This document shows, one piece after another, positions 16,508 through 64,000 of a stretch of 64,000 bases of DNA (its first letter is position 1; every line of letters starts with the position of its first letter). The DNA lies in NCBI GenBank assembly GCA_033065855.1, contig JAVXUO010002571.1, positions 494,901-558,900 on the forward strand. Direction: 5' to 3'. The notes beneath the pieces are model-generated. The model worked only from the letters and a program-made list of their open reading frames with translations. It did not search any database and was not told where the DNA came from. The stretch is from Escallonia rubra (taxonomy: Eukaryota; Streptophyta; Magnoliopsida; Escalloniales; Escalloniaceae). The translations under genes were made by a program, and so were the position numbers.

Positions 16508-17005
16508 TCGAAGTGTAACTACCAGTAGGTCGTCATTGGGTGTTTTTGTGTCTTCTACATCCTCGTCAGATAAGGATATTGTTGGGGCCGGTTATACCTT
16601 TTTCTTTTTAGTCAACGGACCCATAGTGGTGAGGACTTCTCTTACGTAAGCTTTTCGTCCTTGCCTAGACGATCCTCCTGCGGCGATTCCTCCAGAGATA
16701 GTATTAATGACGCCCGCATTTTATTGCGCCTCTTCTCGTTCTGCTAAGGGAGTGGCCTCCCTTCTTTCATCTCTTCGGTTGACATACCTTCGCAAATGTC
16801 CGCGTTTGATGAGAGTCTCTATTGCACGCTTGAGCGATTCACAGTTATCTGTGGTGTGGCTGTGATCATTGTGGTAACGGCACCATAAATTCTTATCCCT
16901 TTTACTGGGTGCGGAACCTCATCTTTTTTGGCCTTTATAACATTTCTTTATCCTTGATCTCGTGAAGGATCTATAACGGCTTGGCGTTCAACGGCGTCAA
17001 ATTCT

Positions 17006-18052
17006 TCATGTCAAATAACTTCTTCGGACGTCGTTCATCTCTTCTTGAAAGTTTGGGGCCTCGTCCTCCTCTTGGGATGCCTTCTCAGGTTCGCTTTCCA
17101 GACTCTTGTCCGTTGTCGTCCCGGTGTCCCTTGTGGGTTTCCAAGTACTCTTCCGCCTGGATGTACTTGTTGGCCTTATCAAGCAAGGCACTCATATTCC
17201 TTGGGGGCTTTTGTTTACAACGAAAGCGAACTTGGAGGTAGGACGGAGCCCACGTAAGAAGGCAGTGTACTTAACTGATTCGTCCAGATTGTCAATTTCT
17301 AGAGTCGCTGCATTGAAACGCCCTAAATAATACGACAAGGACTCGGTTCTCTCTTGAACCACATTAAAGAGACTCGACAAATTTTTCCTCCGAGTTCTGC
17401 TGCTCACAAAATATTTTTGGAACAAATTGGAGAGTTGGGCGAAGGAATGGATTAACCTTGGACGGAGAGATTTGAACCAAGCATGCGCCGCTTTTCTCAG
17501 AGTGGTTGGGAAAGCACGACACATAACGACATCTGAAATCTGAAGTAACAACATGTTCGTTTGAAATTGGTAGACATGCTCTCACGGGTCCCCGCTCCCA
17601 TCATACAAGTCGCACTGTGGCATCCAAAAATTCGGAGGGAGTTTCGCTTTTTCGATTGCCTTGGACAGGGGATACCCAGAATCTTCCCTTGGGGGAGTCG
17701 ATTCTTTTGGGTGGGGTTCGGAGACAGTCTTTCGAGAAGCTTGCTCATGGGAGGGGACTTCTCGTTTGTCAGAGCGGCTTCGTCCTTGGGGACATCGTTT
17801 TTTGCCCACCCAGTGTCGGCCATGGGTCCTTTCATCCAAAATGGGGGACGAATTCGTGCTGTCCCTCATCGACGTCTCACGACGGAAGCAGGAGCCACTT
17901 ATGGTGACGTGTTCTTTGGCTTCCGTTCTGGGCTGATAACTAGGATCAGTTTCTGATCTATATCTCTGACCGTAGCTTGACCTTGAGGTCAATCTAAGAC
18001 GAAGGTCGCTCGGGTCTAGATGCATCTGGTTGGTAAAAATCGTAGGGGTCAC
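17006..18052 (-). pseudogene. Tat element gag
   Basis: The N-terminal charged, low-complexity part (17582-18052) is followed in the same frame, after a TGA stop near 17579, by the conserved capsid region (17192-17554): AFPTTLRKAAHAWFKSL, FAQLSNLFQKYF and ESLSYYLGRFN. These match the plant retrotransposon gag family. A further fragment lies at 17006-17191. One in-frame stop plus a downstream frame change make it inactive. Gag would form the virus-like particle core. Confidence 0.85.
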
Positions 18053-18390
18053 CCTTCAATCTTTTTTTGTAGGGTATTTACCACGCCCTTAAGTTTGTGG
18101 ATTTCCTTTGTCAGATCCGCGTTCAAGGTGTTAAACAGCTTCCGAGTCAGGCGATGGCGTAGGTCCCCCCTTTTTAAAAGAGGGGTCGGGGAACAAGTCC
18201 CCTGGGAGCTGCCACTCGTCTTCGGGGTGACCGAGGTCACATTAATCCAGTCGTTACTGGAATATCGTTGGGATGGTGTTGGCTACCGGCCTCCTCGGTG
18301 GGAGCCACTCGATCTCGCTCGTTGATTCTGGATGGAGCGACTAATTGAAGGAGTGTCTGAAGATGATTGCCTGGCCATGTTCCCAGTCGG

Positions 18391-18408
18391 TCCCACAGAT
18401 GGTGCCAA
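18391..18408 (-). other. Primer binding site of the Tat element
   Basis: On the minus strand TTGGCACCATCTGTGGGA lies 5 bp inside the 5' LTR. The sequence resembles the TTGGCGCCGTCTGTGGGA primer sites common in plant gypsy elements of this lineage, and confirms right-to-left orientation. Which tRNA it pairs with was not determined. Confidence 0.7.
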
Positions 18409-18413
18409 AATAT

Positions 18414-18834
18414 TGCTACTTGAATATTGATTGGGAACCACAACTGGAAAATGGACCTGCAAAATAGAACACAGAGTGACCGCCGGGGGTGTTCCGGCGG
18501 AGGAGGCTCCAATGCTAAAGTCAGAACGTTGCTACAAGGGTAGAGCTCTGAATCGCAGAAATGCACTGGGCGTGCGAGTGTGTGAACTTGTCTGTGTACC
18601 TGAGGCTTTGCCTATGATATAGGCTCCTCCCAGAATCCTCCCTTCTTCAGGACTATTCTTTGATAGGTCCTCGATGTATTAGAACCATGTTAGGACTCTT
18701 CTTTCAGTAGTCGAGTCCTACAAGGCCTCTATCACCTCTTTTAGAGCCTATCCTGATACAGACTCCTTAGTCGACTCGGAGTCAACCACGCCACGTGTCA
18801 TCATTTGGTTGGGTGGACATATTTAGCTATATCA
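18414..18834 (-). repeat. 5' LTR of the Tat element
   Basis: This 421-bp copy matches 7432-7855 with about 5% mismatch by eye and shares the GCCGGGGGTGTTCCGGCGG segment. It adjoins the primer binding site on its left and the right-hand LINE duplication on its right. Confidence 0.92.
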
Positions 18835-19216
18835 GTGTGGTAACAGAGCAATGAGAGAAACAACGGTGTTGTCATACTTCCAAGACCTTTTCTTATCTTT
18901 AGGACCATTGGATAGGCTGTGCAGGAAGTTCTTGACGCTGTTCCACCCAAAATTTCTCCCAAAATGAACCATTATCTAACTCGTCATTTTTATACTTGAA
19001 GGTATATCTGCTCTATTTTACTGGAATCCTACTAAATTTCCTCAGACCCGACGGCATGCCTGCACTAATTTTCAACATTTTTGGCATATTGTCAATATTA
19101 TCAGCTTTCCTCAATTTATCTTTCTTTGTTAGAAAAATCAACTATACTCGTATTGTGCTGATCCTGAAGTGTCAAATCCAGAAGAAGAAAAAAAATGTCA
19201 CGATTTCGGCCTATAA
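18835..19216 (+). repeat. Right copy of ~380-bp LINE duplication
   Basis: Direct repeat of 7012-7390, beginning exactly at the end of the right LTR. See the left copy and the related finding. Confidence 0.85.
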
Positions 19217-20560: not shown

Positions 20561-29784
<9,224 letters not shown>

Positions 29785-31830
29785 TTTTGTCAGGGACAGG
29801 ACAGCGAAGTAGCTCGCAAAGCCTCTGCTATCTCTATGTTTTCTGCAAAATAATCATCAAAAGCCTTAGTAATTTCTAATGAAACATCTATTGAATATAG
29901 TTTTTTATAAGGTATAGAGGGGGAGCAAATTTTTCATAAAAGATAATTACGACTGTTGGACGCGTAACAACACAGTTTTGGTATAGACTAAAGCTGGGCT
30001 TATAATACAGAGACCATACATATATGCCTCCAGATATATAAACTTTCACATACATGTGTAAGTGTGTGAAAATCACAGATTTATACCCATCAAGCCTTTG
30101 CTAATGAACGTCAATTGGCTTTCTTTACCAGTAAGATATGAGGTGGGACCTGAACTAAACAGGTTTAAAATTGCAAGATAGTAAAACAGAATACCGGCTG
30201 GCGTACTAAGCTAAATTAGTACAGAATGTCAATATCTATACACAAATTCACAGTAAAGAGTTTTGCAGTTTAGTACAAAAACATTTTACTACAAGGTTGT
30301 TGAAATAAAACATGAAAAGTCGAGAAGCATGGCTTGATGATGTGCAAGATAGAACGAATTGATGCATATTAAAGATTGTTTTAATGAATTCTGTAAAAGA
30401 CAGGATTAAGGTAAAACAGAACACTAATTGTGGTATTCGAAAATTCATAATGCTCTTCGATTATTCTAGCATACGACTCTGCATAACGCATTCCAGAGGC
30501 AGCCAAGGATCCATGTAGCGGTTCCAAAATTGGCAGGAAAGCTTGTCAACTTAAATTTCATCCGTCCACTAGTAAGTAAGTTGACTCTATTGAGCCTCCA
30601 TTACTTTTCTAGTCTATGGTATATAAATCTCGAGATATATGAAGGGCTGCTGAATCCAACTTTTAAATACAGCAGGTGGTTGATTGCTATTGGAATGGAG
30701 AGAGCAAATAATTAAAATAAAAGTAAACAGTTATGGTAAGTTCTATCTGTCTTTTAGTTGGCAATCTGGAACAAAATCAACCCAACATCCTTTTAAGAGA
30801 AATGATAAAACTTGGCTTGGTCCCAACAGTTGTTTCTCAAATGATGTCGCTCAACACATTACACTTCTTTGGAAACAGTTTGCCACTGCAGCCACAGTTA
30901 TTTCAAAATCACCACTGCCGCATAATTCGTGAACCAACTTTCAGGACTATGATTAGGACTTGTATCATTACTCATCTTTTAAATTGCAACTAGAGAGATT
31001 AAACCTAGACTCACGCACTTCCAAAAAGCATCCAAATTAGGCCATATGAGTTCCCCTGTAGTGACTGGTATCTATCCAACACTTAAATCATTTAAACGAC
31101 TGACTAGCCCCGCCGCCCTTCAATGCTACCTAACCAACCAAACCCTTGTTACCAAAACTCAGCCAAAGACGTTGGACGTTTCAATCCCACCGCTCAGAAA
31201 ACTTGCAACTTATATCCAAACCACAGTTTAATCACTATTGTAACTTATAAGGTATTAGAATGCAATTTCTGCCTTTTACACAATGATGTAGCGCCTTTAT
31301 ACAGTTTCATGTACACTTATACGAAACAACTCGTAGTTTAACTAAAAATAATGGAAGAAACTGGACAACACACAAACCATTCACAGGTAATGCATTCAAT
31401 CATCAGGACAGAGAAGCTTTCAATCTCAAACGCAAGCCTATACACTAAATGGCGTCGCATATGAAGCTATACAAGGCCATACACACGAAGCAGGACAAAT
31501 AAACAAGCAGATCTCGAGATTCGGAATAAGGAGAAATGGTAACGAGCAGATCTTAAAACGAAAAAAAAAATGAAAAGAGAAATGAAAAAAGAAGCGGAAA
31601 AGAAAGGAGAGCAGAGAGGGTAAAGAACGAGTTGGAGTGTGTTGAAACGGAAGCGAACCTCGGATTTCAATGGCGGCAGTGGAAGGAGCAGAGGAGGAGG
31701 GTGGTGGGCATGGAGCAGAGGAGGAGGGTGGTGGGCGTGTATGTGTATGTGTGTTTCAGTTGCCACCACCGCTTTTGGCGGAAAATATATGATGGGGAAA
31801 CGACTACCAACCCTTTTGCTATTCCCCCTC
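29785..31830 (-). promoter_or_regulatory. Probable ADCS 5' UTR, leader intron and promoter-proximal region
   Basis: Upstream of the start codon the minus strand has a short leader to a good acceptor (TTTTGCAG, exon starting at 29842). A plausible donor, CCGAG|GTTCGC, lies at 31659/31658, so a 5'-UTR intron of about 1.8 kb is likely. The leader exon (about 31659-31800) is C/T-rich with CACCACCCTCC repeats. An AT-rich ATATATTTTC on the minus strand around 31780 could serve as a TATA-like element. Inferred from position and splice consensus only. Confidence 0.45.
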
Positions 31831-42639: not shown

Positions 42640-43918
42640 GGTCGGATCCATAACAGGCATGCTATCATTAATATAGCTAACCTTGTGAGGCGGCAAGGGT
42701 TCTTTTCGGGCATTCGGCTTTGTAGGAAGGGATATTTCACCCTTGTTAATAAGTTCTTGTATGATGTGTCAAAGCGTTATGTATCTCTCGGTGGGGTGTC
42801 GCTTCCCTGATGATAGGCGCAAAATGCATGTACATCATATCCTTCTAGTATTACTGCTGGTGTAGGGGTAGGCGGCAACTTAGAAATCATACCCTTTCTT
42901 AACAACTATTCAAAGACTTTAGGCAGCAGCACATTCAGTGGTGTGAATTTCCTTTTAGGCTCTACAGTGGCCTCCTGTGACACTACATGGGGTGCTTTCA
43001 CATGGTTGACATTATTGGCAGTTACTGGCTTGGGTTGTGCATTAGAACTCCTCGGACCGGCTCGGTATATCCCTGGCTTTGATTTACTAGAGATGGTTCC
43101 ATTACTAAAGGCATCTTCGATATGTTTGAGGGATCTAACAAGTGCTTTGGATGACTTGTGGTAATGGCCAAAGATAGAGTCATGGTATGCGAGAAGCAGA
43201 TTATTTCTGAACGATATTTACTTGCTCTTCTTCCGTCGAACGGTTCACCATCTCACGCTGCCTTATTTTTCCACCTCATAATGAAGGCTGACACTGATTC
43301 TCTCAGCTCTTGCTTTGTGGTTTCCAAATCTCTCCGGGTAATATCTAGATTAACATTATAGTGGTATTGCTTCACAAACTTTATCACAACATCTTCCCAA
43401 GTTCGACCTTGGGCTTCATCCGAAATGAGGAAACAACAAGAGGCGGTTCTCGTGAGGGTACGGTGCAACAACTTTATCAACTGGTTCTGATTCACTCTGC
43501 ATGGGGTTAACGTGAGCATGTACATCTTGACATGGATTTTAGGATCTGTGGTCCCATCAAATTTATCCATTTCCAGTATCTTAAACTTGGTGGACAATCT
43601 ATCCCCATGGTTCATGGTCAGGGCACTAAGGTGTAAAGGGTCATTGGCTCTCCTCATCTTGACGATTTGAGATTCAAGTGCCGCCAGTTTGTCTTTCCAT
43701 TCCGGAACAACATGGGGTTTGATTTCCTCATCGTCAATTTCATACTGCCACTCAAATTCCGAACCCTTCTTCTTGTCATCTTTCTTTTCGCAATCTTTCG
43801 TTTCTTTCATACCTCTCCTTTTGAGATTATCTAATTCCTTGGCTGTTCGAGATTGTTGATTTGTCAAAGTGGCAAAACCATTCTGAAAGTCCTTATGTAG
43901 TTCACTAGTACAGACCAA
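42640..43918 (-). pseudogene. Ogre-type gag
   Basis: The main frame (43253-43918) has a charged linker, then FDGTTDPKIHVKMYM, ARTWEDV-like GRTWEDVVIKFVKQYHYN and DITRRDLETTKQELRESVSA, characteristic of Ogre/Tat gag. The C-terminal part continues in broken frames to about 42640 with LINKGEISLPTKPNA and SYINDSMPVMDPTVIFPN. There are stops in the second half. No zinc knuckle was seen. Confidence 0.85.
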
Positions 43919-44140
43919 ATCTGAGATATGTGGAAAGCCTTAGCCATTGAGTTTGTGAGAGCTTTTCAGATGAGTCTCGATACCAACTATGCTTAGCCTT
44001 AACTTTGTAGAGAAATTTATAGAAAACTTAATTACACATACCACAAAGATCGAGCAGGCTGACTTATACCCTAACAGGGTGAGGGGAAATTTTCTGGTGT
44101 TTGGGGTGTTTTTTTAGACTTTGGAAAGCTGTGGGTATGA

Positions 44141-44577
44141 CTGACTAACCGTTCGAATATCCAGTATGAAAATCGGCCGGTTGGTCAGTGAGGTCAAGAT
44201 TATTTTTCTGGGAATTTTTTCTAGAGGATAAGGTCTTGACTAACCGTTCGGTCATCTTAAGGGATAAACCGACGGGCTAGTCAGTGAGGTTAGTGTTTGT
44301 GGTTGGGAATTTTTCTGAATGGGGCATGTTCTATCTAACCGTCTGGTCACCAAGAGGATAAACCGGTCAGTTGATCAGTGAGGTTAGGATTTGTCTCTGG
44401 GAAATTTTCTAGAGGAGACAGGATCTGACTAACCGTCCAGTTACCATGATGGAAAACCGGCCAGTTGGTTATTGGGTTTGATTAGGGTATAAACTAACCA
44501 AGTTCAAAATTATTCAAGCAATGCACTTACTGACTAACCGTCCGGTTGAAAGCATAGTTAACTAGCCGGTTAGTCAG
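44141..44577. repeat. Array of five stem-loops in the Ogre leader
   Basis: Five units spaced about 95-105 bp begin with TGACTAACCG (or TCTAACCG) and end with a partly complementary arm such as GCCGGTTAGTCA. Arms lie at about 44142/44187, 44237/44283, 44333/44381, 44426/44472 and 44531/44577. Pairing covers 10-17 positions with G-U pairs and differing mismatches. The array lies between the primer site and gag. Confidence 0.75.
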
Positions 44578-45086: not shown

Positions 45087-46395
45087 TGTAGCGAACCGCC
45101 TCAAAATTTTTTCCGAAGGAAAGGATTTTAGGAGTCGCCATCTTATTCAATAAGGAAAAATAAGAAAAATCTTAAAATGACTCTTAAGTGCCTAAAAGGG
45201 ACGACTGGTCTATTAGAATTCGGGAGATGGGTTTGAGGAATAAGTTACACAACGAGAAGGTGTAAGCACCCGCCACGCCTTTTCGGTCTCTACTTCAATT
45301 TCATTGATTTTTGGCCTTAAAAACATGTAACATGTAAAACATGATAAACTTACCCTAAATTGTTTTGTAGATTTTTGGCTTGAACTTAAAATCGGGCGTC
45401 GTATTGCCTACATATCCAGTCGGACTAACCGGAATCAAAGCTATCGTAGTTCGACTCTGGTTCTAAATGAAGTAGTCTACAATTCGGTCCTAGACTTTAG
45501 ACAAACAAATGTAAAGAAGACTCTTTTTGTGCTTTTGAATAAAAATATGAGTACGGGATTGGAAGAAAATATATATGATTCTCTAAGCTAAAAAGCTAAT
45601 AAAATATACCTCTTGAAGTACTTACCGCGAAGACTCAAAATATTCTCCAAATGATCCATGATGCAAGGACAAGAAGACTTTATAAAGTGAATTTGAATGG
45701 CTAGACTTTATCACTTCAAGAAGAAATGGTACACAAGCTCTAAGGGAAATCAATTTCTAGATCGAAGTCCCCCGATAATGAAGGCCAAGACATCTATTTA
45801 TAGTGCTCGGGTCACAGAATTTGATAAGATCGGCTATGCCAATCTGTAAGGCAGGAAATAAGTCAGAATATGTGATAAAATCGAACATTGACAAAAGCTA
45901 ATTAACCGGCCAGTTAGTCAAAAATCAGCTGGTTCATCCCATAAATTAAAATTGATTTTTTCAAATTTCGAAGTATTATCTGACCCTATTTTCGATAATT
46001 ATCTTTAATTTTGTAAATGGAATGTACCAGGTTCGGGATAATTCCTCTTTAACCATATACTTTATTGATTTTAATCTTTGCATCAGGGATAATTAACAAA
46101 TTATCTTCCTAACTTATCTAGACAAATTAAACCAATGAATAAAAATCTAGACCTTCGACTAGACTGGCTGTTACTAGACTAGACTTATATTCGACTGGAC
46201 ATGCAACTGGACTAGACTGTACATGCAACTGGACTGGACAACACGACATGATTTAGATTTAACAATTAAACTGGACTGGACTAAATTAATTAACTAAGTC
46301 ACATTGATAATCCTAAATTCAATAATGCAATCTAATTAATAACAAAGTGGACTAATTATTAACTAATAATAACTACGAAAAATGGGGTGTCTACA
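45087..46395 (-). repeat. 5' LTR of the Ogre-type element (1.3 kb)
   Basis: The plus strand runs from TGTAGCGAACCGCC to GGGGTGTCTACA. On minus it begins TGTAGACACCCC, the usual Ogre LTR start. The left LTR fragment (42563-42640) aligns with its first ~80 bp. The GACTAACTGGCCGGTTAA core motif occurs once inside (about 45897-45914). Confidence 0.85.
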
Positions 46396-50217: not shown

Positions 50218-51316
50218 CACACTATCACACCTTTTTCACACACCTTTTTCACACACAACATTTTCTTCCCTCAGTTGTCGTGACCCACTCTACACACCCA
50301 CAATTTCCAAACGCACATTTTACCATGTTTCTAACTTCTAGACCTAACCTAAATCCAATCTAACACTAATCTAACATATGTAATTTCATATACATGATTC
50401 GTTACCTCTAAGCTTTCATACCCGAACCATAAACACCCAAGAACACACATAGACAACACCCAAAACCCACTTAAATCCTCACCACCTCACCCGAATTTCC
50501 TCCTAAACTCATATTAAGACCACAATACCACAAGTACAATCCACATAATTCCTTCACTGCACCGACCGAAACACACAGTGAACACATGAAATTTTCACAC
50601 CACGTATTGAAATTGCGCACTGAAATGTATGGAGGAGACTACCTTGAAGCTCCTTTTTCCAATCTTTCTCTTCTTTCCTCTGTCTCTCTGCCTCTCTCTC
50701 TCTCTCTCTCAGATTTCTTGTTCCTCTTACTTCGGTTCCTGCTGCTGTTCTCTGTTCTGCCATCTTTCTTTTCTGTTTCTTTTCTTCCTTTCCCGAAATG
50801 GAAAAGGTTCTTCTCTTCTTTTCTTATTTGCATTTTTGCCCCCTACGAATTCTTCTTTCCATTTTATTATATGCTTCATTATCTATTCCATTATTAAATA
50901 TTTTAATTTAGCTTAGTCATCAACCTAATAGGAGGTGGCAACATTTTAAGATATGGTTTTCCCCAAATCGCAAATTAGCCATAATTACAAAATGACCCCA
51001 AACTTTTGTATAATTACATCAAAGCCCCAAATCTTATTCCAACCTCCATTAATTTAATCAAATGTCCCTAAAATATATTGTCACTCATTTTATTATTTTT
51101 CATCACATAGACATTAATTTACAGTTATGCCCCCCCCACAATTGTTTTTCAAAATTATGAAAATGCCCCCAGAATTTCAAATTTTACATTTTTGTCCAAA
51201 TTTCTTTTAAGCTTCGATACATTACTAATACTCAAGCATTGCTCAAATTTAACGCATGTTTATTTTTCGGAGCCCAGATGGTTATTTTAACCGGGTCCCG
51301 AAGTTCGGGATTTTAG

Positions 51317-52712
51317 ATGCTTCTCTCCTTATAAAAATTTTGTTCTCGAAATTTGCTCGCGGATATCCCACCATTTATAACGTCTACGTACTACGCTTTC
51401 GCTGCACCACTCTGATAACTGTCGCACCGTAGCCATGCTACACCAAATCTTCGTGCCCACGTTCGCTTCTATGAACATCCGAACGCAACAATTATATTCT
51501 AACCGTAATGCTAACTCGGTCCGATCAGGTTATCACTCGTGCTCTAACCGTTCCAATATTTCACAACAATGACTTGCTAATACGAAACTCACTAAGCTAA
51601 ACCTACAACACTCCGAATTCAACGCATGTCCAATGGATTAATCAAACTCTATTACAATAAGCTCCCACTGCATTACATTGCATTATACTAATCCTATACC
51701 CAAAACTCTATGAGTTGCACAACTTATTCCACGATGGAAAATTTAATTTTGAGTTTAAGGTGTACTGTACACCAAACGGTGACCATACATAACTTACATG
51801 CTACCGAAGCTAACGTGGATAGTATAATTGATTTCTGTAAGCATTTGCACCTCGGAATCACTAACAGCGATAATCAACCAAGAACAGAAGCCGTAACTAC
51901 CCGACTTGCATTGTACACTCAAATACCTCAAACAACGAGTTCGAATTATTGCCCAATTCATCACTGAGAGGCGTGTTATTTTAACATAGCCATTATTGCG
52001 AACTTACGGTTCTGCGTACACTTCACAGAATAACAGAAACTATTGCCACTATGGTTTCGCTACACACTCTGGTGCCTTATCTCAACGAGCCCATGCTGTT
52101 ACCGAATTCGTCACTTTGAGACGTGTTCTATTAACATAGCGCAACACATGATTCCGAATACCTATATATTCATTTTCAATAGAGTGTAAGGCTCTATGTC
52201 ATCAAATCATTTCTGATTTACAGTCACATTATTTACAAAAGTCTCATAGCCTTATCCTTCAATCATCTGTTTCGGTTAAACGTTTAAACTTCTTCAATTC
52301 TACAAGCAAGTAACATATGGTCTATCATCACATGTTTAATCAAGATCTCAATCTTATATCGAATCATCGAATAGCTTACACAAACCTTACCCATGTTCTC
52401 GAAATCTACTCTCGCTCACAGATTATCTGAGGCTTAGGAATCTACCTAATCTCATATCCAGGTAAGGGAAACTATGTAAATAAGGATAATAATAATCGTA
52501 ATAAGACAATCAAAACACATAAATTTTTACAAAAATCATACTCATTTGTTTTTCGCAATGCAAGGGTACGATATTCCAGAAAACAACGAATACAGAAACA
52601 TTGACGTAGGTCTGACGAAGCAAAGTCAACCCAACGACTTGAAGCAATAAAAAATGAGCCCGCTAGGATGAAAATCCTGCAAAGGGCGGCCTAGACAAAA
52701 GTGAGGGCAAAA
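51317..52712. other. Unassigned repetitive sequence right of the long LTR
   Basis: The first ~45 bp are the end of a chromovirus pol on the minus strand. A CCACTCTGATAACTGTCGC stretch near 51407 resembles a reversed tRNA-Met-type primer site, hinting at a heavily deleted element. A ~40-bp motif ('ATTCATCACTGAGAGGCGTG') recurs near 51956 and 52108. No gene recognised. Confidence 0.35.
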
Positions 52713-52721
52713 TAAAAACTT

Positions 52722-53928
52722 GGTGAATCCCAAAACTCTACCCTCAACTTTACCTCAAGTACATCTTTAGTATCCAACTTTGAAGGTGCGCCAAAGAAGT
52801 ACTTAACTTTCAAAAAACGTACCAAATCAGTATGTCGACTGACAGACGACAGATGCTGTTAAAAAGTTTGAGGGGTAGGACTATCAATAATGAAAAAGTA
52901 AATCTTAAAAACACGTGGCACTACCACAGCCGTTCAATTTTTCTCTTCCTTAATTCAATCCTTCCAAAACAAAAAAACTCTCTCTCATTCTTTCTAAAAA
53001 AAATCTTCTCTCTCTCTAAAAAAACTATTCTCTATCTCTCTCTAAAAATACTCTTCTCATTAAAAAATGTTCTCTCTCTCCTCCTCCTCCATCGCCACCA
53101 CATTCCCCACGACTTCTCTGGCAGCTCCTCTGACTCCCTCCTCCTCTCCGACTTCTCCCGCCCTCCTCCGCTACCCGACGAAGACCACCTCACACCCCTA
53201 AAAAAGAACCCTATCAAGAAACCCCCAAAGTACTTCTCCATTATGAGGTATGCGAGGTTGAGGAGCTGTGTGTCGAGCTGCCAGTCGTCAATGAGGTCCT
53301 CCCCGAGCCACTCGGGCATTCTCGACTGAAACGACGAGGTTGTGGTGTCCAGGAGAGAGGTGGTGGGCAGTGGCGACAACACAGCGTCAATGGAGGAGCT
53401 GCAGAGCACGATTCAAGGTGCGATTGCTCACCGCAAGAACTCCATGGTTCAGTGTACTACTAGTTTGAACAGAACGCCTCCTGCGATGGGCCGTCAAATT
53501 TCTTCCTGCCACGGGTGCAGTGTACTTATTAGTCCACAAACTCCATCATTTTCTTGCTGCTGCAAGTGTGGCCTCATTTTGTGTTTTGAGAAGGTGTGAG
53601 ATGTGAATGGGCGTGGAAGGAAATATATAAAGGGGGAGGGACTTTGTGTGTGTGTGTGTGTTTGTTTCTGTGTATGTGAATTAAAGAAAAGAGAGAGAGA
53701 AGAGAGAAAGAAAAGAGTAAGACTGAAAAAGACGGCCCACATGCACAGGTTTTATGGAAATTTTTTCATAATGACGGTTGGACTTTTTAACAACATCCAT
53801 GGTCCGTTAGCCGAGGTACTGATTTGAGACCTTTTTTTAAACTTAGGTACTTCTTTGGCGCACTTTCAAAGTTGGGTACTAAAGTTGTGCTGGGGATAAA
53901 GTTGAGGGTACACTTTTGGGATTTGCCC
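52722..53928. mobile_element. Mutator-like element with ~112-bp terminal inverted repeats
   Basis: 52722-52833 and 53816-53928 are inverted copies (GTGCGCCAAAGAAGTAC in each, ends GGTGAATCCCAAAA and GGGCAAATCCCAAAA). The 9-bp flanks TAAAAACTT (52713-52721) and AAAAAACTT (53929-53937) match at 8 of 9 positions, as expected for Mutator-like elements. No transposase is encoded. Confidence 0.88.
53032..53409 (-). pseudogene. Open frame inside the Mutator-like element, possible captured gene piece
   Basis: A 125-aa minus frame contains FQSRMPEWLGEDLIDDWQLD and TQLLNLAYLIMEKYFGGFL, which reads like real protein, followed by Ser/Gly/Arg-rich low complexity. A plus frame at 53342-53599 overlaps it. 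I do not recognise the source gene. If captured, this is a Pack-MULE. Confidence 0.4.
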
Positions 53929-53937
53929 AAAAAACTT

Positions 53938-56900
53938 TTAGGTCCTATCTGCATCATCAGAGTAATCAGGAATCATATACCTTTCTTCTTCCTCGAGGGA
54001 GGAAAATCATCTTCATCTTGAAATATGATGGACCAGAACTTCTGCATGTCTTTTTTATAAGTCAGCCTCTACGACATTGCCATTACATCTTCTAGAACTT
54101 CTGCCTCTATTCTTGGACCCCGGCCCACTTTCTCGATCATTGTACCCTTCACTTACTTTTGATCAAAATAGCCCGCAACATAAGCATCTATTCCATATTC
54201 AATTTCTGGATCAACTTGATGGCAAATGGCTTCTTTTGATGTCTCTTCTTAGCCGGCAAGGAACTACTCATCCAAGGTTCATCAATATGCAGAGACCGTA
54301 TCGGATTCCCGTTTACATTAAACTTGTCTTCAAGCATCTGGGAATCGATCAAGGACTGCAGAATCCATGTGAACTGGACTTCTTCCTCTGCCTGGGGCCG
54401 ACAGAAACTCTGAACTATACTCAGGGATGATCTACTAGAGTTAGGCAACTCAGCCCCCAAGCCTATTGTAACACAAGCTTCCTCTTTAGCTCGTTCTAGC
54501 TATTTGATCTCATAGGCCCCTTAAAATCCCAGTTCAGTTATGTATTCTGTTCTCCAAAGTTAGCAACTTCTCCTTGACACGAGGCGAAAGGAAACTGATG
54601 TAATCTTCAGACAATAATGGAGCAATCTAGTCCATACCATTGAAGAATGCTTTACCCCATAGGAAACTTTTGAAATAAGGAAGATGACCCTAACCCTAAG
54701 AAATAGCTATAATCACTGAGGCACGAAGGTCTCTCACCATAGTAGCAAAGTTATTGTAAAAGTTCAGAACAATTTTTTCATAATTGAACTACCTAAGAAT
54801 CTGGAAAGCAAAGTAGAATGATGTAGAATGAGTGATACTCAACAATTCTCAGAGTAGGTCCATGAGGTTCCTACCAATCACAGCAACAAAGGATATCATT
54901 GGATTCCCATGCAAAGAAAAAGCGAGTCTAATCATCTATGCTAAAATGACCCTAAAAAGCAAACGCTGAGCATAGAACAAATAAGGGCGATACTTGAGCT
55001 CAGCAGTTATAGCTATCAGCTGGATGTGATCCAAAAGCCATATGTATAGAAGGAAGGGCTACCCCTAAATGTAGAACTTGGATTCCCCATGCACCTCGGT
55101 ACTACTATTGATGGTTTCAGCTACCACTACTGGAATCAGGGTTTTCCCTTTCGAAGACACTTGGACTTACAACTCAGTCAATCTCTAATCAGCAACACCA
55201 GGGCCCACGACAACAAGATATTTGACAACCAGGCACAACCTCAGAGCCGCCACACGATCACATGCATACTGCGGACCATGGTCATCCGGTTTCGAAGAAA
55301 AATATTCGAGATCCTAGAATTTGCATGCAGCCTGACAAATGTGTTCATGAACAACCACCATCCGCTTAATTCATGACTGGCTTCAGATAAAAGCACCCAT
55401 CCAGATGAATAAGGTCCACCAAAGCAATTAGAAAAAGCTCATAACTGGAGCTCAAAGATCATGGGATTATCTTCGGAGGCCATTGGGAGTTATTAGATTG
55501 AAATTCCAATGCCCCCCCTAAAGTATGAGTCCCGAAAATATAATAAGAGAGCCTTAAGTCCCAAATATATAATGACTCAAAGTTTTAAAATTCAAAAGAA
55601 CTTATCGGACAAACAAGACAGTTTTTGACAAACCAACCGATTTTTCTTTTTGTTTTAAATATTTGTGAAAAGCAAATCTCTTGGAGCAACTGCCCGGTTT
55701 TACCAGAAAATTTGTTTTTTCTTTTGATCAACCATTTGATTTTACCATAAAAATTAATTTTTGTTTTGGTCAACCTTCCGATTTTACCAAAAAAATTAAT
55801 TTTGTTTCTGATCAACTGTCTGGTTTTACCAGTGTTTGTGAAATGTCAGCATGCATCAAAATTAAATTTACATATAAATTGCTAATAAAAATCTCAACTA
55901 AAAAAATAAAAGAAGTAATTGTGCATTACATTGGAGTTTGCATGATAAAAGTTCTAATTGGACTATAAATCATATTCTAAACTAATCAGCCATCCGAGCA
56001 TAAACTCCTTCGGGTCTTTTTGGGGTTAAGCTCCCCCATGCCGGATCTCAAAGACTCGTCCTCTCGCTCATACTCCTCTTCCTAAGGGATTGGGGCATGA
56101 CTCCCCTACCATGTGCTCGGTCGGTCCAGGTTTCATGTAGGTCCTGTAGAATACAGCCGCAACACTAAAAGATCGACGTCTCAATTTCCTCGGGGCGTAG
56201 GCTGGGGCTTTTCCCGTGCTTCTACTAGCACCCTCTTTCTCTTGTGGTAGTGCAGACTCTAGTTGGCGAACCGGCCTTAGGAGAACTCCGATGGTCTCCC
56301 TTGTCTTCCTTCGACCTCTCGTCTAAAGTACCAGAGCCCCTCCCGTAGGGGTCTAAGTGGCAGCAATAGGAGTAACGGGTTTTGAAGAACTCAGTCCTCT
56401 ACTCGATCCACCTCGCGAATGTGGCATCGAGGGAGTGGGAGTAGGTGCCTTCGTTGTCTCAGCAGATGGCCCATACACCTCCAGCAAGTTCTAAAGTGGA
56501 TACCATGTACTTGAGACTGCGTTTCATCTAACAAGCATCCTTTAACATTGAGCTCAGGACCTACCAAAAGAGATCATAAGGTTAAAGTTAAGCATAAAAG
56601 GACATATTGAGCACAATTGAGATTGAAGGTTACTGTCTTGACCTGAGCAAGCTCATTGATCCCTAACACCTCCATCCTTCTTCGACCGGCAGATCGGCTC
56701 TTTCTCTTCACCTTTGCCCCTCAGAAATACCTACACTGCCAAATGAGGGAATGCAATATCCTTTACAGCCTCCGCCTCCTTCTTCCTCTTGCGTTTCTAG
56801 TCCCGGGCCGCCTTAGCCCGCTGAATCCTCTTCAAGCACTCCAAAGTCAATGGAGGACCCAAGTTGTATCACCTTGCCTTGCCTTTCCAGTCTCAGCCCG

Positions 56901-56939
56901 CTTAATCCTCCTCGGCCACTCTATAGTCAACGGAGGACC
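53938..56939 (-). pseudogene. Degenerate downstream part of a plant-mobile-domain transposable-element gene
   Basis: Minus-strand blocks with coding character (54188-54460: EEEVQFTWILQSLIDSQMLE, then a basic segment; 56000-56480: Ser/Pro/Arg-rich) continue the gene whose mobile domain lies at 59670-61200. The second solo LTR interrupts it. A ~75-bp duplication occurs at 56790-56860 and 56880-56944. Many stops are present. Relation to the mobile-domain part is inferred from position and strand. Confidence 0.4.
55600..55845. repeat. Minisatellite, about four units of ~55 bp
   Basis: Units carry CAACCxTxxGATTTTACCA followed by an AAAATTAATTTTTGTTTT-type run, at about 55630, 55690, 55728, 55780 and 55815. 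Frames on both strands are repeat artefacts. The CAACCG-CCGGTT flavour recalls the hairpin arrays at 44.1 and 62.5 kb. Confidence 0.65.
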
Positions 56940-56944
56940 CAAGT

Positions 56945-59664
56945 CGTAACCCCTAAAACTTTTTGTTTTATCGAAAAATTATTTTACCTTAATCTAATTT
57001 ATTCGTCGTCTTTTTTGTAAGATTAAAAAGTGTGGGTAAAATTGGGAAGAGATAACCAAAGTGTTGGGGCTGGGAGTTTAAGAAATTTTCTTTTTTTGGG
57101 TTAATTTATATAAGGTTAGCTTAGGCATCAGCCGTCAACATTTTGGTCTCTTTTTGTTATTTTTTTTCATGAAACTTAGAGAAAGAGAGGGAGGAAGAGA
57201 TGGGAAGAAGCTAGTGTTAAATTGCACAGGTATGATTTCTATTCTTTTCTCCCTAATTTTAACCATTAATTGGATGCATAAAGTATGGTTTTAGGTGTGT
57301 TTTATAGGGGTGTTGATGTGTTGATTGCTAGGATTTTGTGTGTGTTTCAAAAGGTTGAGATATTGGTGTGTTTGGGAAGAAGGCTGTTGTAGAGCAGCAT
57401 AAGAGTGGGTTATGATTTTTGTCAATATCTTTTCATTACTAATCCGATTGATGTGTTTTTTACACTTTCTAAAAACATTGCTGTGTCCAAATCAACTTTT
57501 CAGTTTGAAGTTTTTTCAAAATCTCACACTTGCATATCAAAAAATGAACTTAAAGTTAATACACCGTAGAAGTCCAGAATTTTTCAGTTTCTGGCAGTCA
57601 CTTCGATTTGCTATAGAGAATTCATTATTCATTGGTTTTTGTGATTCTTATATTTATAGAAACCTCAGAAAGTATACTTTAACTTTGTAGCTTCGAGTTT
57701 TTTTAGATTCATTATTTCTACTTTAAAATAACCATTGAACAAAACTGGTCCGCCCAGAGATGTGTTGTTTCTATCAGCCACTTCTATTTTCTATAGAATA
57801 TTCAGTATTCTTTTATTTTTAGAGATTCTTATCTTTTTGAAAACCTCAGCAAGTCTATTTCAACATTATATTTTTGAGTTTTTAGAGGTTCTTCATAATT
57901 CGGTTTCAAAATGGTCAATGTACAAAACTAGTTTTTGTTGAAAAATGATATTTCTAGAATTACATATCAGTCCTTTGTCCAATTCTTTTAAGCTAATTCT
58001 GAGCATATATGGGCCAAGTCAAAACTAAAATCTCTCTTATTTGTACGAAACCTACATCGTGGAAATTTCTGGGATTTTTCTAGGTATGCGAAGGGCATTA
58101 GATGATTTCATTTCAAAAAGGGATTTTGAATTGTTTGATATAGCAAATGAGCTTATTTTTAGCCGAAAAAGTATTTAGTAACCTTGTTTTACTGAGAGGC
58201 TTCAGTGTCTAAAATTTTGTGGCTTTTCGGTGTCAATTGCTATGCTTGTGAAATATGGCAAATTAGCGCTCAATTAAAGGAGTGGATTAGGATTTTGAAC
58301 GGAAAATCTCTCGAGTGATGTTTTAGTGCAAAAAACCTAGCTAGTCATTTTAAAAGGTGCTTTGTGGTGCTTTTTGCTGGTACATTAGGCGTCGGAGGTA
58401 TTTTGCTAATTTTACACAAGCCTGGGGAATTTTTGGTAATTTTACTTACTTAGGGGCAAATTTAGCAGTCAGACATAATTGAACTTCATAAATTGCTATC
58501 CTTGCTATTTATCGATTTAGGTTCTAATAATCGAGGGTAAGACCAAGTCATGACCTAGGGTTAATACTGGTTATCGAGTCAAGTAAGTATTCCTGCTATT
58601 TTTCGGCTTATACCATATTTTCGATGCTATACACACACACACACACACACACATACATAGACATACATATACATATACATACTTATATACTGATACGTAC
58701 CAACCGGAGGTTTTAAAGTCTTTTGCAATGCAATTACTTTCATTTAAAGTTGTTTGATGAGAAAAAAATGAGTTGCCATGGAATGTATTACATCTGGTTA
58801 TTATGAACCTTGTTTTGAATCATGATATTGGTGTTGTTTTTGGTTGCTGTGCTTCACATCTAAAGGGAAAAAGTTAGATTTCAGGTCCTAGTCAACGGGA
58901 CTATACATTGACGCATAGTATTGTTGTGCGTAGTTCGTCCATGCGTCCATAATAATGATTATCTCGGAGGTGGGTGTGGGATTTCGGGTCCAAGTCAGTG
59001 ATACCATATGTTGTCCGCAGTTTATCGTGAAAAGAGTTTGAATAGTATTCGATGATTTACATACTGTTATTCTATCGTTCTGGAAGAGTTTTCTGCAAAC
59101 ATGATTTTGCTATCATAAAGTATATGTATAGTATCTCTTGTGAAATTGTTTACTAGATTTAAATCAAAAGACCTATGACATGTTTTGAAAATCAAAAAAT
59201 TACTTTGGAACATAGTATGAGCACTTAATGGTCCCCTAGCTCACTCTTTAAAAAAATTTTGGTGATTACTTAGCGGGACCCGATATTCCTAAGAGCCACG
59301 AAGACGCGGTCGCATGAGAGGATTACTAGAGGAGTTGAAGTCTTTTTAGAACATTTAAAGATTTTCAGGTTGACATTTTAGTATTTCAAACTATTTTGCA
59401 AATTGTTCGGAGCATAGATCTCCACATGATTTTTAATGATCTGTGTTAGTTGATTTATGAAGGATGTCATTAGAGACATATTTGAGAAATTTATAAGTAT
59501 AATTCCTAGCAGCCTTATTAATGGGTTAATTTTTAAATGCTCGGTTATAGATTCTAGCGTACATGTTGTAGTAAGGCCTGGCAGAGCCTTTGTGGAGGCT
59601 TAATGGGTCTGTGGCCGTTCACGAACCTAGCTTATGGGCTCACTTGTGGGTTCAGGTCGTGACA
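56945..59664 (-). mobile_element. Solo LTR (2.7 kb, inverted relative to 3291-6094) with TSD CAAGT
   Basis: On minus it starts TGTCACGACCTGAACCCAC and ends GGGGTTACG. CAAGT is duplicated at 56940-56944 and 59665-59669. It shares start sequence, the 'GGCCACAGACCCATT' segment and the 'GGGACTxxxxxTTGACG' region with the 3291-6094 solo LTR, so both are one family. An (AC)n run lies at 58631-58652. No internal domain. Confidence 0.85.
58631..58652. repeat. (AC)n microsatellite
   Basis: Uninterrupted AC dinucleotides followed by ACATAC variants, inside the solo LTR. Confidence 0.95.
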
Positions 59665-59669
59665 CAAGT

Positions 59670-61200
59670 CCTCTCTCACAAACGCCTTGTAGGTACGAGG
59701 ATTGTTTGGCCACCTCAGGGAGGATATGCCAATCCCATATTCAGGCTCTGTCTCAACCCCTAGTCTAGGGTCCATGACTGATACATCTTAAAGGGAGAGG
59801 TTGCCGGGATGCGAGCCTCAACGTCCACGTGGTGCTGGAAGAGCACTTGCACTCCCAGGTAAAACTTTTCCTTGGAGTATCCCACCTACAGTATTTGGCA
59901 CCGGGTGAACGCCAACTCCTCAGGGTAAGACTCAGGCATTTCCCACCTTGAACAAGAAAAATTGGAAGAAAAAAAGAACGAATTGTGAATATTAATGGAT
60001 TTGCCTTAATTAAAATTCAAAAACTAAAATGAATGACTCACCGAGCGCTGAGCCAACCCGTTGAAGCTCTCCCTGTAGGCCTCCACTGTGGCCCAAACCC
60101 GCTCATCCCAAAAGTTCCAACAGAACATTGCATGCTAAGTTTCATCAGTGTGCCCCTCCCCCAATCGCGGGCAGGTGATCTCAAAACCTCGAAAGCCCAA
60201 ACATGTAAGTAAAAATAACATGTGAGCAAAATGTATGAATGCATGCATGAGAATGATCAAAGAGGTTAAACAGAATTGGCATACCTCCCATACGTTGTAG
60301 TACTCCATAAAACTGGAAGATTGCCATCAGGACACCGAGCACATCGAATGATAGAGATGAGCCATGGCAGGAGTGCCCCAGTTGTACTCCTCCATCTCTC
60401 CAACATCCTCCAGATCCCTTAGGCACCACAACTGCACCGAGTCGTCCCCATTGCTGAAAATTGTCTTCCCTAAGTCGTACAAACAAGACCCCTTGGACGT
60501 ACTAGTTTACAGATGCCCCATCGACAGCCTCCAGGGTCATACCCTCATAGTGGGAATGGAGAGTACCGAGCAACTGGACACGAGGTCCCGGTCCTTGTCG
60601 AGATCATAGGCTCAAAGAAAAAGCCTTCCTCGAACGCGAAGTAATATTCGCAAAATCGTATAGGGGTAAGCATGGTCTCCTTGAATGGTAGGTGGAACGT
60701 GTTGGTGGAATCCCTCTAATGCTTCGTGAAGCACAAAAGATGCTTTTTACTAAGGGTGAACGCATGTAACCCGTTTAAAAAAAATATCAAAATCGGTCTC
60801 GACCACCCTATTATCTGTAGACTCGGGTACTTTCCCTTACCATTACCTTACTAATTTTGGGGATACCCTACAAAGTATGTTTGAGGGGACAGGCTGCACA
60901 AAACCAAAAGAAAATGGAGAAAATCTCAAGAGCCATCCAGGTTATGCATGGAGTGCATGAAAAACAAGTGCATGACCTACTTTGCATGGGGATGACTTGT
61001 GTGTGAAAAAGGCATGAAATAATGTGTGTTATTGAATGGTAATCGCTAGAAAACATACCTCGTCCGCAAAAAATTGTCGGCTATGACATGCTTTTTGATC
61101 CGTGAGTCAAGAGAGTGATCATCCGTCCAATTCTTCACCCGGAATCGCGATACACGACTAATTTGAGGCCGACCCTCATGCCCTCTTATAGTATGTATCC
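59670..61200 (-). pseudogene. Plant mobile domain (aminotransferase-like) gene, degenerate
   Basis: Read on minus, 61200-61057 gives SRFRVKNWTDDHSLDSRIKK then a GTATGT donor. After an intron-like gap, 'NTFHLPFKETMLTP' (about 60700) matches the conserved start of the plant mobile domain. Further blocks include GGCWRDGGVQLGHSCHGSSL (about 60370-60420) and 'MFCWNFWDERVWATVEAYRE' (about 60080-60130). Stops and frame changes occur throughout. Such domains are carried by plant transposable elements and by MAIN-like host proteins; here it looks like a dead TE gene. Confidence 0.6.
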
Positions 61201-61415
61201 ATGATTTTCTAAAAAATTAGGGAAGAATGTTGGGGCATTATAGGATTTTAAAGGCAAAAAGTGTAACTGGAGTTGCATTTGATGATGAGAAGTCCTCTCG
61301 GAGAGGAATTTGATAGAGAGAATGATTGAATTGTATTTGAAGTGAATAAAAAAACCTAAATATAGGGCCCAAATCTGAAAGGATAAACTGGTCCATTTGC
61401 TGTTTATATTAGGCA

Positions 61416-61545
61416 AACCTGCTGACTAACCGTCCGGTTTTTGACACTTTAATTGGCCAAAATTCAAACTCTCTGACTAACTGGACGGTTTTTGATTCAA
61501 TATTTTGAGTTTTCCTATCTTCTGACCAACCGACTGGTTTTCGAC
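61416..61545. repeat. Three copies of the GACTAACCGTCCGGTT core motif
   Basis: CTGACTAACCGTCCGGTTTT (61422), CTGACTAACTGGACGGTTTT (61473) and CTGACCAACCGACTGGTTTT (61524) occur at ~51-bp spacing. This is the same core as in the Ogre leader array and close to the core of the 62.5-kb hairpin array. Confidence 0.75.
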
Positions 61546-61756
61546 CTTAAGAAAAAATAAAAAAAATTTGCACACCCATTTGTATTTGCGTGCTTGCGTG
61601 CCTTACATGCTTGTGTGATTGTTCTTTTTCATAAACTTGGTGTGTTTTTCATGCTCATACATGTTGCATTACACTCATCATTTCACCTAAGGTGATTTTT
61701 ATCTAATATTTGTGTGCTTGCATGATTGCCTGTGCATGTCTACTATCCTATCTTCT

Positions 61757-62328
61757 AGGGGTGAGCACGGTTCGGTTGGTTCGGTTTGGAGGCTGAATAC
61801 CAAACTGAACCGACCAACCTCGGTTTGAGAAAAAAAAATCGAACCGTAGTTGAACGGTTTGGTTTCTGCGGGTTGAACGGATTGAACGGATTGAACGGTT
61901 CGGTTTGGACGGTTTAATCGGTTTGGGCCAAACTCAATATTGGGCAAGTTTAGACCCAAAAATAACTTATAAATACTAATAAGCTCTAAAAAAACTGAAT
62001 TTTTTAATCATAATTAATAACACTTAGCGAGATGTAGGCAGTGAGTGAAAAATGTGTGTTACGTTAAGGGATTTAGAGTTTATCCCATTTTATATGAGTG
62101 GTTAGATAACTATGGTTAGTTAAAAATAACTAAGATTAGGTAAAAATATAGATATGTTATATTATATACGATTGGTTCGGTTTATCCGGTTTCAAAAAAA
62201 TCCAAACCGAACCGAATGTACGGTTTGGGAAAAAAAAAAACCAAACCGATTGATTTTTCGATTGGTTTAGAAATAGACGGATTGGTTAATTTGGTTTGAT
62301 CGGTTTCAACGGTTTAAATGCTTACCCC
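61757..62328. mobile_element. hAT-type MITE with 8-bp TSD TATCTTCT
   Basis: The ends are AGGGGTGAGCA and TGCTTACCCC. TATCTTCT is duplicated at 61749-61756 and 62329-62336. Repeated CGGTTCGGTTTGG and its reverse complement CCAAACCGAACCG fill both subterminal regions. 572 bp, no coding capacity. Confidence 0.85.
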
Positions 62329-62336
62329 TATCTTCT

Positions 62337-62468
62337 GATTATTTTTCAATCCGATTACTCCAATCTGTTGCTCAGTTCAGTGATTCATGTACAGTGCAAG
62401 CAAGCCAGTGAAGATCCCACGTTTGTTGACAGAAGCAACATTTTTTTTCATATCAAGTAAATTGATAT
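62337..62468. other. Spacer before the hairpin array
   Basis: It contains one perfect small hairpin, CATATCAA / TTGATATG (62449-62469). Otherwise nothing recognised. Confidence 0.5.
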
Positions 62469-63155
62469 GTTCGACACTCTGAGACCAGCTGTCTTTGTGA
62501 CAGTGTTGGCTTTGGCTTTCAGTGGTGTTTCTGAAACTTTCATATGTTCAAGTGACCAACTGTTTCGACATATCTGGCTCAGGATCTTGGACATGTGCCG
62601 ATATTCCTAAGAAACCAACCGTTTCGACACATTGTTGGCTCCGCTTCTTAGGTTCACCTTTTTCCTTATATCTAAGTGACCAACCATTTTGACACTTTAT
62701 TGGCTCTGGCTCTTAGATATAAGTCCAGTGTGCTTAAGCGACCAACTTTTGACACATTGTCGGCTCTGGCTCTTAGGTTCACCCCCTTTTATACATCCAA
62801 GCGACCAACTATTTCGACACGTTGTTGGCTTCTGCTCTTGGATGTACTCCTATATTCCTAACCGACCAATCGTTTCGACACGTTGTTGGCTCTGGCTCTT
62901 AGGATCATCTTTTCCTTATGCCTAAGCGAACAACTGTTTCAACACCTTGTTTGCTTTGGCTATTAGATATAAGTTCTTATGGCTAAGCGAGAAGCCGCTT
63001 AAGGGCATTGTTGGCTTTGGCTCTTAGACATAATTTTTTTAGTATCCTTAGAAGACCAACCCCTTCGACATGTTGTTAGCTCTGGCTACTAAGGATACAC
63101 CCCTTGCCTGGCAACCAACCGTTCTGACACATTTTTGGCTCCGGCTCCCGACAAT
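62469..63155. repeat. Tandem array of about ten stem-loops with changing but self-complementary stems
   Basis: Units of roughly 55-65 bp share the core GACCAACCGTTTCGACACA then TTGTTGGCTCTGGCT, with CCAAC/GTTGG as inner stem. Each core is bracketed by its own outer stem: 62541-62552/62586-62597 (12 pairs, two G-U), 62606-62611/62647-62652, 62665-62676/62712-62723 (12 perfect), 62728-62738/62772-62782, 62792-62801/62837-62846 (10 perfect), 62856-62861/62899-62904, 62915-62926/62960-62973, 62977-62987/63023-63033 (10 of 11), 63042-63051/63089-63098 (10 perfect). Stem sequences differ between units while the loop side is conserved. First and last units are degraded. Two short frames crossing it are artefacts. 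Confidence 0.9.
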
Positions 63156-63430
63156 GTTCAATACCAATTTTCTTTGTAATTGTTGACTTTATAAGTCAAG
63201 ATTCATTATTTTGATAATTCCAAGACTACTGCTCTAACATTAATCTAACAATGTTTTTAAGTATGATTTCAGGACCCAGGACCACCAATCATAGCATGGA
63301 ATATTCTTTGGTCAAAGACTTTGGACTTGGACTTAGTTTATTTTTCTTTCTTTGTAATAAATCTAAAGCTAAGTCTTCTTAAAGATCTACCAGAAAATCA
63401 AAAAGGACAAACCAAGAAGTCTTCATCTTG
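63156..63430. other. Unassigned AT-rich sequence, possible LTR start
   Basis: TGTTGACTTTATAAGTC (63181) could be the start of an LTR whose promoter is at 63887, but the other end lies outside the window. Confidence 0.3.
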
Positions 63431-63433
63431 AAA

Positions 63434-63715
63434 AGATTTTCATTCGGAGGAAAAGATTTTCATTCGATTGAATTCTTCAGTCCTCGATTGTCTGATTTTT
63501 AAGCTTGATTTTCATTCGAAGGAAAACGATTCATTCGACTGAATCCTTCAGTCCTCAATTGTCTCATTTTATACTTAGTTTTCATTCGAAGGAAAAGTCT
63601 TTTATTGGACTGAATCCTTCAGTCCTCGTTTGTTTGATATTAAACATGGTTTTCATTCGAAGAATTTTTTTTCATTCGAAGCCTTTGCTTTTCATTTGAC
63701 TAAATGTTTCAGTGG
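63434..63715. repeat. Direct repeat, about four units of ~71 bp
   Basis: Units begin near 63436, 63508, 63579 and 63649 with TTTTCATTCGAAGGAAAA and contain GGACTGAATCCTTCAGTCC-type palindromes. They are upstream of a TATA box, which fits enhancer-like U3 repeats of an LTR. The 63505-63699 open frame is an artefact. Confidence 0.8.
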
Positions 63716-63886
63716 CACCAAAATATCTCTGTTCTTCAAATTGCTTCGAACGAATCTTGGATTCATTCGACCGAATTCTTCAGAGATCACTTAACTGAAA
63801 ATTCCTTTGAATGATTTTATTTATTCATTCAAATGAATCTCTATGTTATCCCTTTATCTACTTTTCAATAGTCATATTCCTTCAAG

Positions 63887-63895
63887 TATAAAAGG
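63887..63895 (+). promoter_or_regulatory. TATA box, probable LTR promoter
   Basis: TATAAAAGG within AAGTATAAAAGGGACTC, followed by a C/T-rich stretch (CTCTCTCATTCTTCTC), downstream of the ~71-bp repeats. It looks like the U3/R border of an LTR truncated by the window end. Confidence 0.5.
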
Positions 63896-64000
63896 GACTC
63901 TTACAGAGTTTATTACGAACTTTTCTAATCTCTGAAAAATCTCTCTCATTCTTCTCAAAAAGATTCTCTCAACTTATTCATACATCTCTATACTATTCCT

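Follow-up and report, generated by a model that had tools for sequence, protein, structure and literature searches.

The window analysed here, a stretch of 64,000 nucleotides from Escallonia rubra (GCA_033065855.1, contig JAVXUO010002571.1, positions 494,901 to 558,900), carries close to its right-hand end a tandem array of imperfect hairpins embedded in the remains of a retrotransposon. With a core profile, 11 units of about 62 bp each were identified in tandem at 62470–63158, the first beginning at 62470, with core starts 59–71 bp apart; the preliminary description had counted about ten units with a shared core. Each unit consists, in order, of a left arm of about 12 nt, 2–3 nt, the inner stem strand CCAAC, a loop around TTTCGACA, the inner stem strand GTTGG, a right stretch and the right arm. 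The right-hand side of the core is the longer one (CTC-GGCT), so that the internal loop is lopsided, ending GGCTC-GGCT, and this core (CCAAC/GTTGG, lopsided internal loop and TTTCGACA loop) is common to all stem classes. All units were placed on the + strand by the core profile and arm pairing, and their stems are of uneven quality when scored as Watson–Crick pairs out of 12: unit 1 (62470–62529; core profile E 0.008) has a weak stem, its arm at 62481 pairing 5/12, and is followed by unit 2 (62541–62597; 10 Watson–Crick and 2 G-U), unit 3 (62600–62658; arm at 62611, 8/12), unit 4 (62665–62723; 12/12), unit 5 (62727–62783; arm at 62738, 8/12), unit 6 (62790–62848; 10/12), unit 7 (62851–62909; arm at 62862, 8/12), unit 8 (62915–62973; 9/12), unit 9 (62976–63034; 10/12), unit 10 (63041–63099; 10/12) and unit 11 (63100–63158; arm at 63111, 7/12). 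The stems quoted in the preliminary description are found among these, namely CTTATATCTAAG/CTTAGATATAAG at 62665–62676/62712–62723, CATATGTTCAAG/CTTGGACATGTG with its two G-U pairs at 62541–62552/62586–62597, and the TACATCCAAG and GTATCCTTAG units, which are units 6 and 10, respectively. A twelfth hairpin, its pairing judged by eye from the sequence, lies in contig C1387, which overlaps the window, past an inserted LTR (about 5800–5855 of locus L032).

The window copy of the array-bearing family, with the remains of an antisense extra ORF on the − strand, was delimited at 53931–63180 (+) by BLASTN against four other copies (L034, L035, L004 and L015); it is without pol, and is interrupted at about 56865–59664 (about 2.8 kb), at 61757–62328 and from 63181. 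The interruption at 61757–62328, which the alignments skip, is, by its sequence, a hAT-like MITE of 572 bp just upstream of the array; it is flanked by an 8-bp target duplication, TATCTTCT, at 61749–61756 and 62329–62336, and is absent from the copies aligned across its site. Many GGTTCGGTTTGG-like internal repeats were also seen within this MITE. The last interruption is the start of an inserted LTR (63181–64000, +; start placed by eye at TGTTGAC), which runs to the contig end, contains 71-bp tandem repeats and a TATAAAAGGG box, and parts the array from unit 12 and from the 3'LTR. In L032 this LTR is about 1.2 kb long (about 4580–5798), with a TATA box, a poly-C stretch, CACCTATTCACCCCCCAG, near its end and the flanks GTAAT/ATAAT; no primer site was found after it, and it resembles a solo LTR that is Sirevirus-like by resemblance only. 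The downstream TATA box and the 71-bp repeats had suggested that the array itself might lie inside an LTR, an assignment that was rejected because that stretch is a separate insertion and is absent from other copies that align across the site; the array is therefore outside the LTR.

In BLAST comparisons with the copies, the conserved body of the element continues on both sides of the array. Downstream of the array comes a purine run, and then TGTAGACACCCC, with which an LTR of about 1 kb begins (6006–6982 in L032); this LTR has a TATA box of its own. In several copies the purine run is found ahead of TGTAGACACC. Left flank, array, pre-LTR region and LTR are all correctly ordered in 24 of 37 non-window copies, and at least one element flank is present in order and orientation in 35 of the 37, with some of the left matches only 35–59 bp long. 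Two copies, L012 and L021, have no element flank in the 1.5 kb examined around the array. At another locus, L025, the array has an LTR-like right flank of the family on either side, the two in opposite orientations, as if two copies had been joined head to head or one had been inserted in the other.

Pol was found in one (L034) of the two copies whose upstream side was examined, as the similarity of the other, L035, begins only in the antisense region. The contig of L034, C1745, encodes on its + strand, in order, RVT_1 (2e-11), RT_RNaseH (7.6e-6) and RVT_3 (1.6e-12), the last being a second RNase H, followed by an integrase-like piece that by eye resembles an integrase core and has no Pfam match. 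The antisense pieces hold no intact ORF; 2 of 14 match the plant mobile domain (L004, 1.9e-6; L005, 8.1e-5), both below the curated cut-off, and 1 of 14 weakly matches DUF7745. In L004 the array lies about 1.1 kb from the antisense plant-mobile-domain-like remains, on the 3'LTR side. Passages on the Tat clade place a second RNase H (aRH) between RNase H and integrase in Ogre and Retand, and report that 57% of Ogre elements have a plant mobile domain (PMC6317226); for Retand, they describe long regions between pol and 3'LTR with antisense ORFs, an antisense Transposase_28 (TRP28) in 97% of clusters, and, in about half, tandem arrays beside pol or the 3'LTR, the origin and function of these arrays being stated as unknown (PMC11963269). 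The layout of the array-bearing family is consistent with this clade of Ty3/gypsy, to which the family may belong. Transposase_28 (PF04195) was found in 0 of 14 antisense pieces of the array-bearing family, a negative that is weak because the pieces are decayed, and the family is not filed as a Retand lineage. The earlier remark that no named repeat class has this design must be recast, since the array is not free-standing and tandem arrays at such a place in Tat-clade elements are already known. Rfam gave no match at gathering thresholds over the whole window, ARAGORN found nothing in the window, and a scan of viral contigs with the core pattern gave no matches.

The central claim of the preliminary description, that pairing is conserved in the outer stems while their sequence is not, is upheld in the window and in other copies of the same genome. 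With the arm register fixed by the core and not by pairing, the arms of the window units form on average 8.8 of 12 Watson–Crick pairs with their own partners, as compared with 5.9 when combined with the arms of other units, and 0 of 20,000 permutations reached the observed value. Pair counts were made on a MAFFT alignment of the 11 window units and compared with 500 shuffles. In this alignment, 80.1% of the cells are paired versus 69.4% after shuffling (0/500), cells changed on both sides number 26 versus 10.6 (0/500), and 10 of the 12 outer pairs include a change on both sides; over the whole structure, pairs changed on both sides are 10 versus 6.8 (9/500). The covariation score of these 11 units is 0.403, compared with 0.214 in shuffles (sd 0.027, 0/500), and falls to 0.127 or less once the partner is slid by 1–3 columns. 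No excess over shuffles was seen in further pair types among the same units (22 versus 20.6, 179/500). The inner stem CCAAC/GTTGG has no pair changed on both sides in the window units, and therefore contributes no evidence of covariation. Columns 6–55 and 7–54 in the window each hold four or more pair types, for which C-to-T decay is insufficient as the sole source. The folding energies of single units are weaker evidence than pairing: z ranges from −4.4 to +0.9 among the 11 window units, and has a mean of −0.89 over the 228 units of the wider set described below.

Further arrays, for which the preliminary description had proposed a genome search, were found, and the pairing of each unit's own arms recurs in them. 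At least 51 matches to the window array (40 of 354 first-look candidates scored) and at least 50 to another copy (40 of 395 scored) were obtained, both being lower bounds. The core profile gave 312 matches at E up to 1, of which 239 met E 0.01 with near-full model coverage; exclusion of the 11 units of L032, the second copy of the window locus, left 228 units in 29 arrays, i.e., the window and 28 others (L003–L030), with L010 and L012 both retained although they share one contig. In these 29 arrays, own arms form 7.91 of 12 pairs versus 6.20 when swapped within the array (sd 0.10, 0/2000), and the mutual information of arm columns is 0.208 on the pairing diagonal versus 0.043–0.099 on the others. 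A later set, comprising 79 units at 9 new places out of 30 loci (L065 excluded as a near-copy of L064), was scored with a profile built without them; here own arms reach 7.33 versus 5.72 swapped (sd 0.18, 0/2000), and slid registers give 2.2–4.1. Outer-stem covariation is thus present in further arrays as it is in the window. As scored, arrays have from 3 to 17 units.

Neighbouring contigs were seen to duplicate one locus in two cases, C1386 end with C1387 start and C1661 end with C1662 start. The window ends at the contig end of C1386, and positions 1–13372 of C1387 are 96% identical to window positions 50642–64000. Such duplicated contig ends are probably two haplotypes or unmerged overlaps, and copy counts in this assembly are consequently inflated at contig ends.

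The units fall into stem classes, which make it possible to compare core with arms and to date the covariation. Among 205 units, core columns are equally alike between and within classes (e.g., 1.00/1.00, 0.87/0.86 and 0.92/0.95), with the qualification that the core is not uniformly constant, two of its loop columns being only 0.31–0.39 alike. Several outer arm columns are 0.53–0.57 alike within classes and only 0.20–0.25, i.e., at the random level, between them, yet they pair; other arm columns, chiefly near the core, are 0.6–0.8 alike between classes. When the commonest letters were compared for 15 narrow classes of at least 4 units each (215 of 307 units, the rest being unused), 129 of 165 positions were Watson–Crick, compared with 98.2 with right arms swapped (0/5000). 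Within broad classes, which still mix several sorts of unit, own arms give 8.04 versus 7.73 swapped (0/2000), and in the narrowest classes they are only slightly ahead, at 8.50 versus 8.38 (0/1000), with slid registers at z 0.1 to 1.1. Double changes in the narrowest classes (11 paired and 9 unpaired) are hardly more than the 13.5 that independence would predict. Within narrow classes, recent compensation is therefore slight by permutation and absent by the double-change count. Such near-neutral changes are what would be expected of dead copies decaying by C-to-T, so that the stems would have been kept paired earlier, in the active lineage; the covariation mostly predates the present copies.

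An explanation free of selection would be that strand switching by reverse transcriptase, or during replication, copies one arm onto the other, a process that the preliminary description had offered, as hairpin-templated homogenisation, beside selection on structure. Reverse transcription would offer many chances for such events and would yield matching arms without function, and abnormal strand transfer is proposed as a source of such tandem repeats in passages of PMC7004042. The arrays clearly recombine through the core, since a left-arm class has its usual right-arm partner in only about 0.77 of units at the first threshold and 0.63 at the loosest, and some units have the appearance of two fused classes (L004 at 1512). 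Mismatches shared by whole classes nevertheless persist: one class, of 44 units from 26 copies, has a T-T mismatch at stem position 8 in every unit, which speaks against efficient hairpin-templated repair. Other classes keep C-A or G-A mismatches, with C-A at stem position 5 found in 10 of 13 units. In addition, the internal loop remains lopsided in the aligned units, and no unit in the narrow classes has more than one compensated pair, although the conversion of a tract would alter several together. Of the two mechanisms proposed earlier, selection on structure is accordingly the favoured one, and homogenisation, in view of the class-wide mismatches and the lopsided loop, appears quite unlikely.

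The explanation that we favour, with moderate confidence, is selection, during the activity of the family, for a cis-acting structured region of the Ty3/gypsy transcript. About a dozen tandem imperfect hairpins are flanked by the antisense extra-ORF region on one side and by the purine run and 3'LTR on the other, in an old family of Tat-clade type. While the family was active, selection would have held each stem paired and the core constant in sequence; the core would have been displayed on its hairpin to a putative protein partner, such as Gag, an export factor or a host protein, and the repeated units would have provided several putative binding sites, whereas the present-day copies would be dead and decaying. 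A presented binding site may be expected to look like this, with a constant interior and varying but paired arms. Selection is favoured on account of the own-arm pairing in the 29 and 9 arrays, the class majorities, the mutual information on the diagonal and the contrast between core and arms, and the retention of the array in its element context (35/37 copies with a flank, 24/37 with all three pieces) was also counted for the structured-RNA explanation. Counted against it were the near parity of G-U and A-C, the modest folding, the slight compensation in narrow classes, the varying loop columns and the variable number of units. In the strand comparison, by which selection on a sense RNA should be distinguishable from DNA or antisense, G-U has no clear excess over A-C: single changes are 60 G-U and 67 A-C in the narrowest classes and 95 and 83 in wider ones, and class majorities have 15 and 9. 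The antisense strand is lower in folding energy for 134 of 228 units and the sense strand for 90 (mean −12.7 versus −11.8 kcal/mol); this slightly better antisense folding, together with the modest fold, counts against a confident claim for a sense RNA.

As the parity of G-U and A-C suits DNA equally with RNA, the array may also be read as a cis-regulatory one acting at the DNA level, in which palindromic units would bind a dimeric factor and serve as promoter or enhancer of the antisense extra ORF. The array does sit between the 3'LTR and the antisense plant-mobile-domain-like remains, such that the start of the antisense ORF would face the LTR across it, an arrangement that may be compared with the Sirevirus palindromes ahead of a promoter or env. 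Passages on Sireviruses describe palindromic repeat clusters at comparable places (PMC2829016), and for Grande an internal promoter is reported to drive antisense transcription (PMC7264820). A binding site should, however, keep the sequence of its palindrome, whereas here it is the arms that vary and the core between them that is constant, and the arms stand about 35 nt apart, compared with palindromes of 10–20 nt in the Sirevirus passages (PMC2829016). We regard regulation at the DNA level as rather unlikely. Finally, the array could be a functionless relic, in which case it would be an ordinary hypervariable tandem repeat on the 3' side of a Tat-type element, with founding units that were palindromic by chance. 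Tandem arrays of unknown function are common at this place according to passages of PMC11963269 and PMC7004042, and the recent changes appear neutral; the inheritance of palindromic founders, however, cannot yield class-specific arms that are near-random in sequence and still pair, which makes this reading very improbable.

In simian type D retroviruses, the constitutive transport element is made up of stem-loops at the 3' end, downstream of the last gene and ahead of the 3'LTR, which display a conserved loop sequence. The Escallonia array is similar in that stem-loops before a 3'LTR would present conserved loops, a resemblance for which no homology is claimed, and differs in having a dozen tandem units instead of one structure. 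Tat-clade arrays likewise lie between the extra ORF and the 3'LTR, have units measuring tens of bp and vary among copies in the number of units, yet the passages on them mention neither hairpins nor covariation (PMC11963269, PMC7004042, PMC3305785), and the term 'palindrom' has no occurrence in the text available from PMC3305785 and PMC7004042. The array is also less 'hypervariable' than these, because classes of fixed stem remain recognisable across copies that are about 68–81% identical. Sirevirus repeated palindromic motifs (RM) are also clustered within a regulatory stretch of an LTR retrotransposon of plants, and occur as well before an internal extra gene; as characterised in passages of PMC2829016, they measure 10–20 nt, lie in Ty1/copia LTRs, and have a CGG-CCG core and a conserved palindrome sequence, and for maize PMC5311732 and PMC10760457 connect them with secondary structure and small RNAs. 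The present array, in contrast, belongs to a Ty3/gypsy element, lies outside the LTR, and has 59-nt units with variable arms and a constant interior. Assignment to an RM cluster was rejected, as the array has no CGG-CCG core and its element is of Ty3/gypsy type, with the array placed outside the LTR.

The literature searched yielded no description of such arrays as covarying hairpins. Host element and location are of a known kind, and the covarying-hairpin design is, as far as this search reaches, not described. In the largest plant retrotransposons, tandem arrays are often found ahead of the 3'LTR, and new satellites arise from them. Stems that covary around a core that stays constant provide the first testable handle found on a function for such arrays, possibly as structured RNA, and covariation offers a way to separate selected from passive arrays in other genomes.

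The window contains a second, fairly complete Ty3/gypsy element at 7012–19216 on the − strand. Its pol pieces (13079–16591, −) include rve, RT and two RNase H domains, Transposase_28 lies on the strand opposite to pol (10471–11085, E 2e-7), and tandem repeats occupy 7975–10109, on the 3' side of the Transposase_28 ORF. These repeats include units GGACTT...GTGCTCAAGCAC AAGTCC, with partial hairpins GGACTT..GTGCT/AGCAC..AAGTCC. Relative to mononucleotide shuffles, folding is better at 9480–10110 (z −5.6), less so at 8130–8450 (z −2.2) and no better at 7975–8160 (z +1.0), and the stems are more uniform than those of the array at 62470–63158. Since an element bearing Transposase_28, the Retand marker, thus has hairpin-forming repeats at the corresponding place, the design of a hairpin array may be general. 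Repeats at 7434–7855 and 18413–18834 (95%) resemble the LTRs of this second element, and a further repeat at 7012–7390 and 18835–19216 (93%, same orientation) lies outside them on both sides. Elsewhere in the window, an LTR about 66% related to the 3'LTR of the array family was observed in reverse orientation at 45427–46395 (−); it is followed by a gag-like ORF at 43253–43939 (−; Retrotrans_gag E 0.01, below the cut-off), accompanied by a 94-bp tandem repeat at 44168–44467. Exon-like ORFs at 20561–29853 (−) read, by eye from their translations, like a plant gene of aminodeoxychorismate/anthranilate synthase type.
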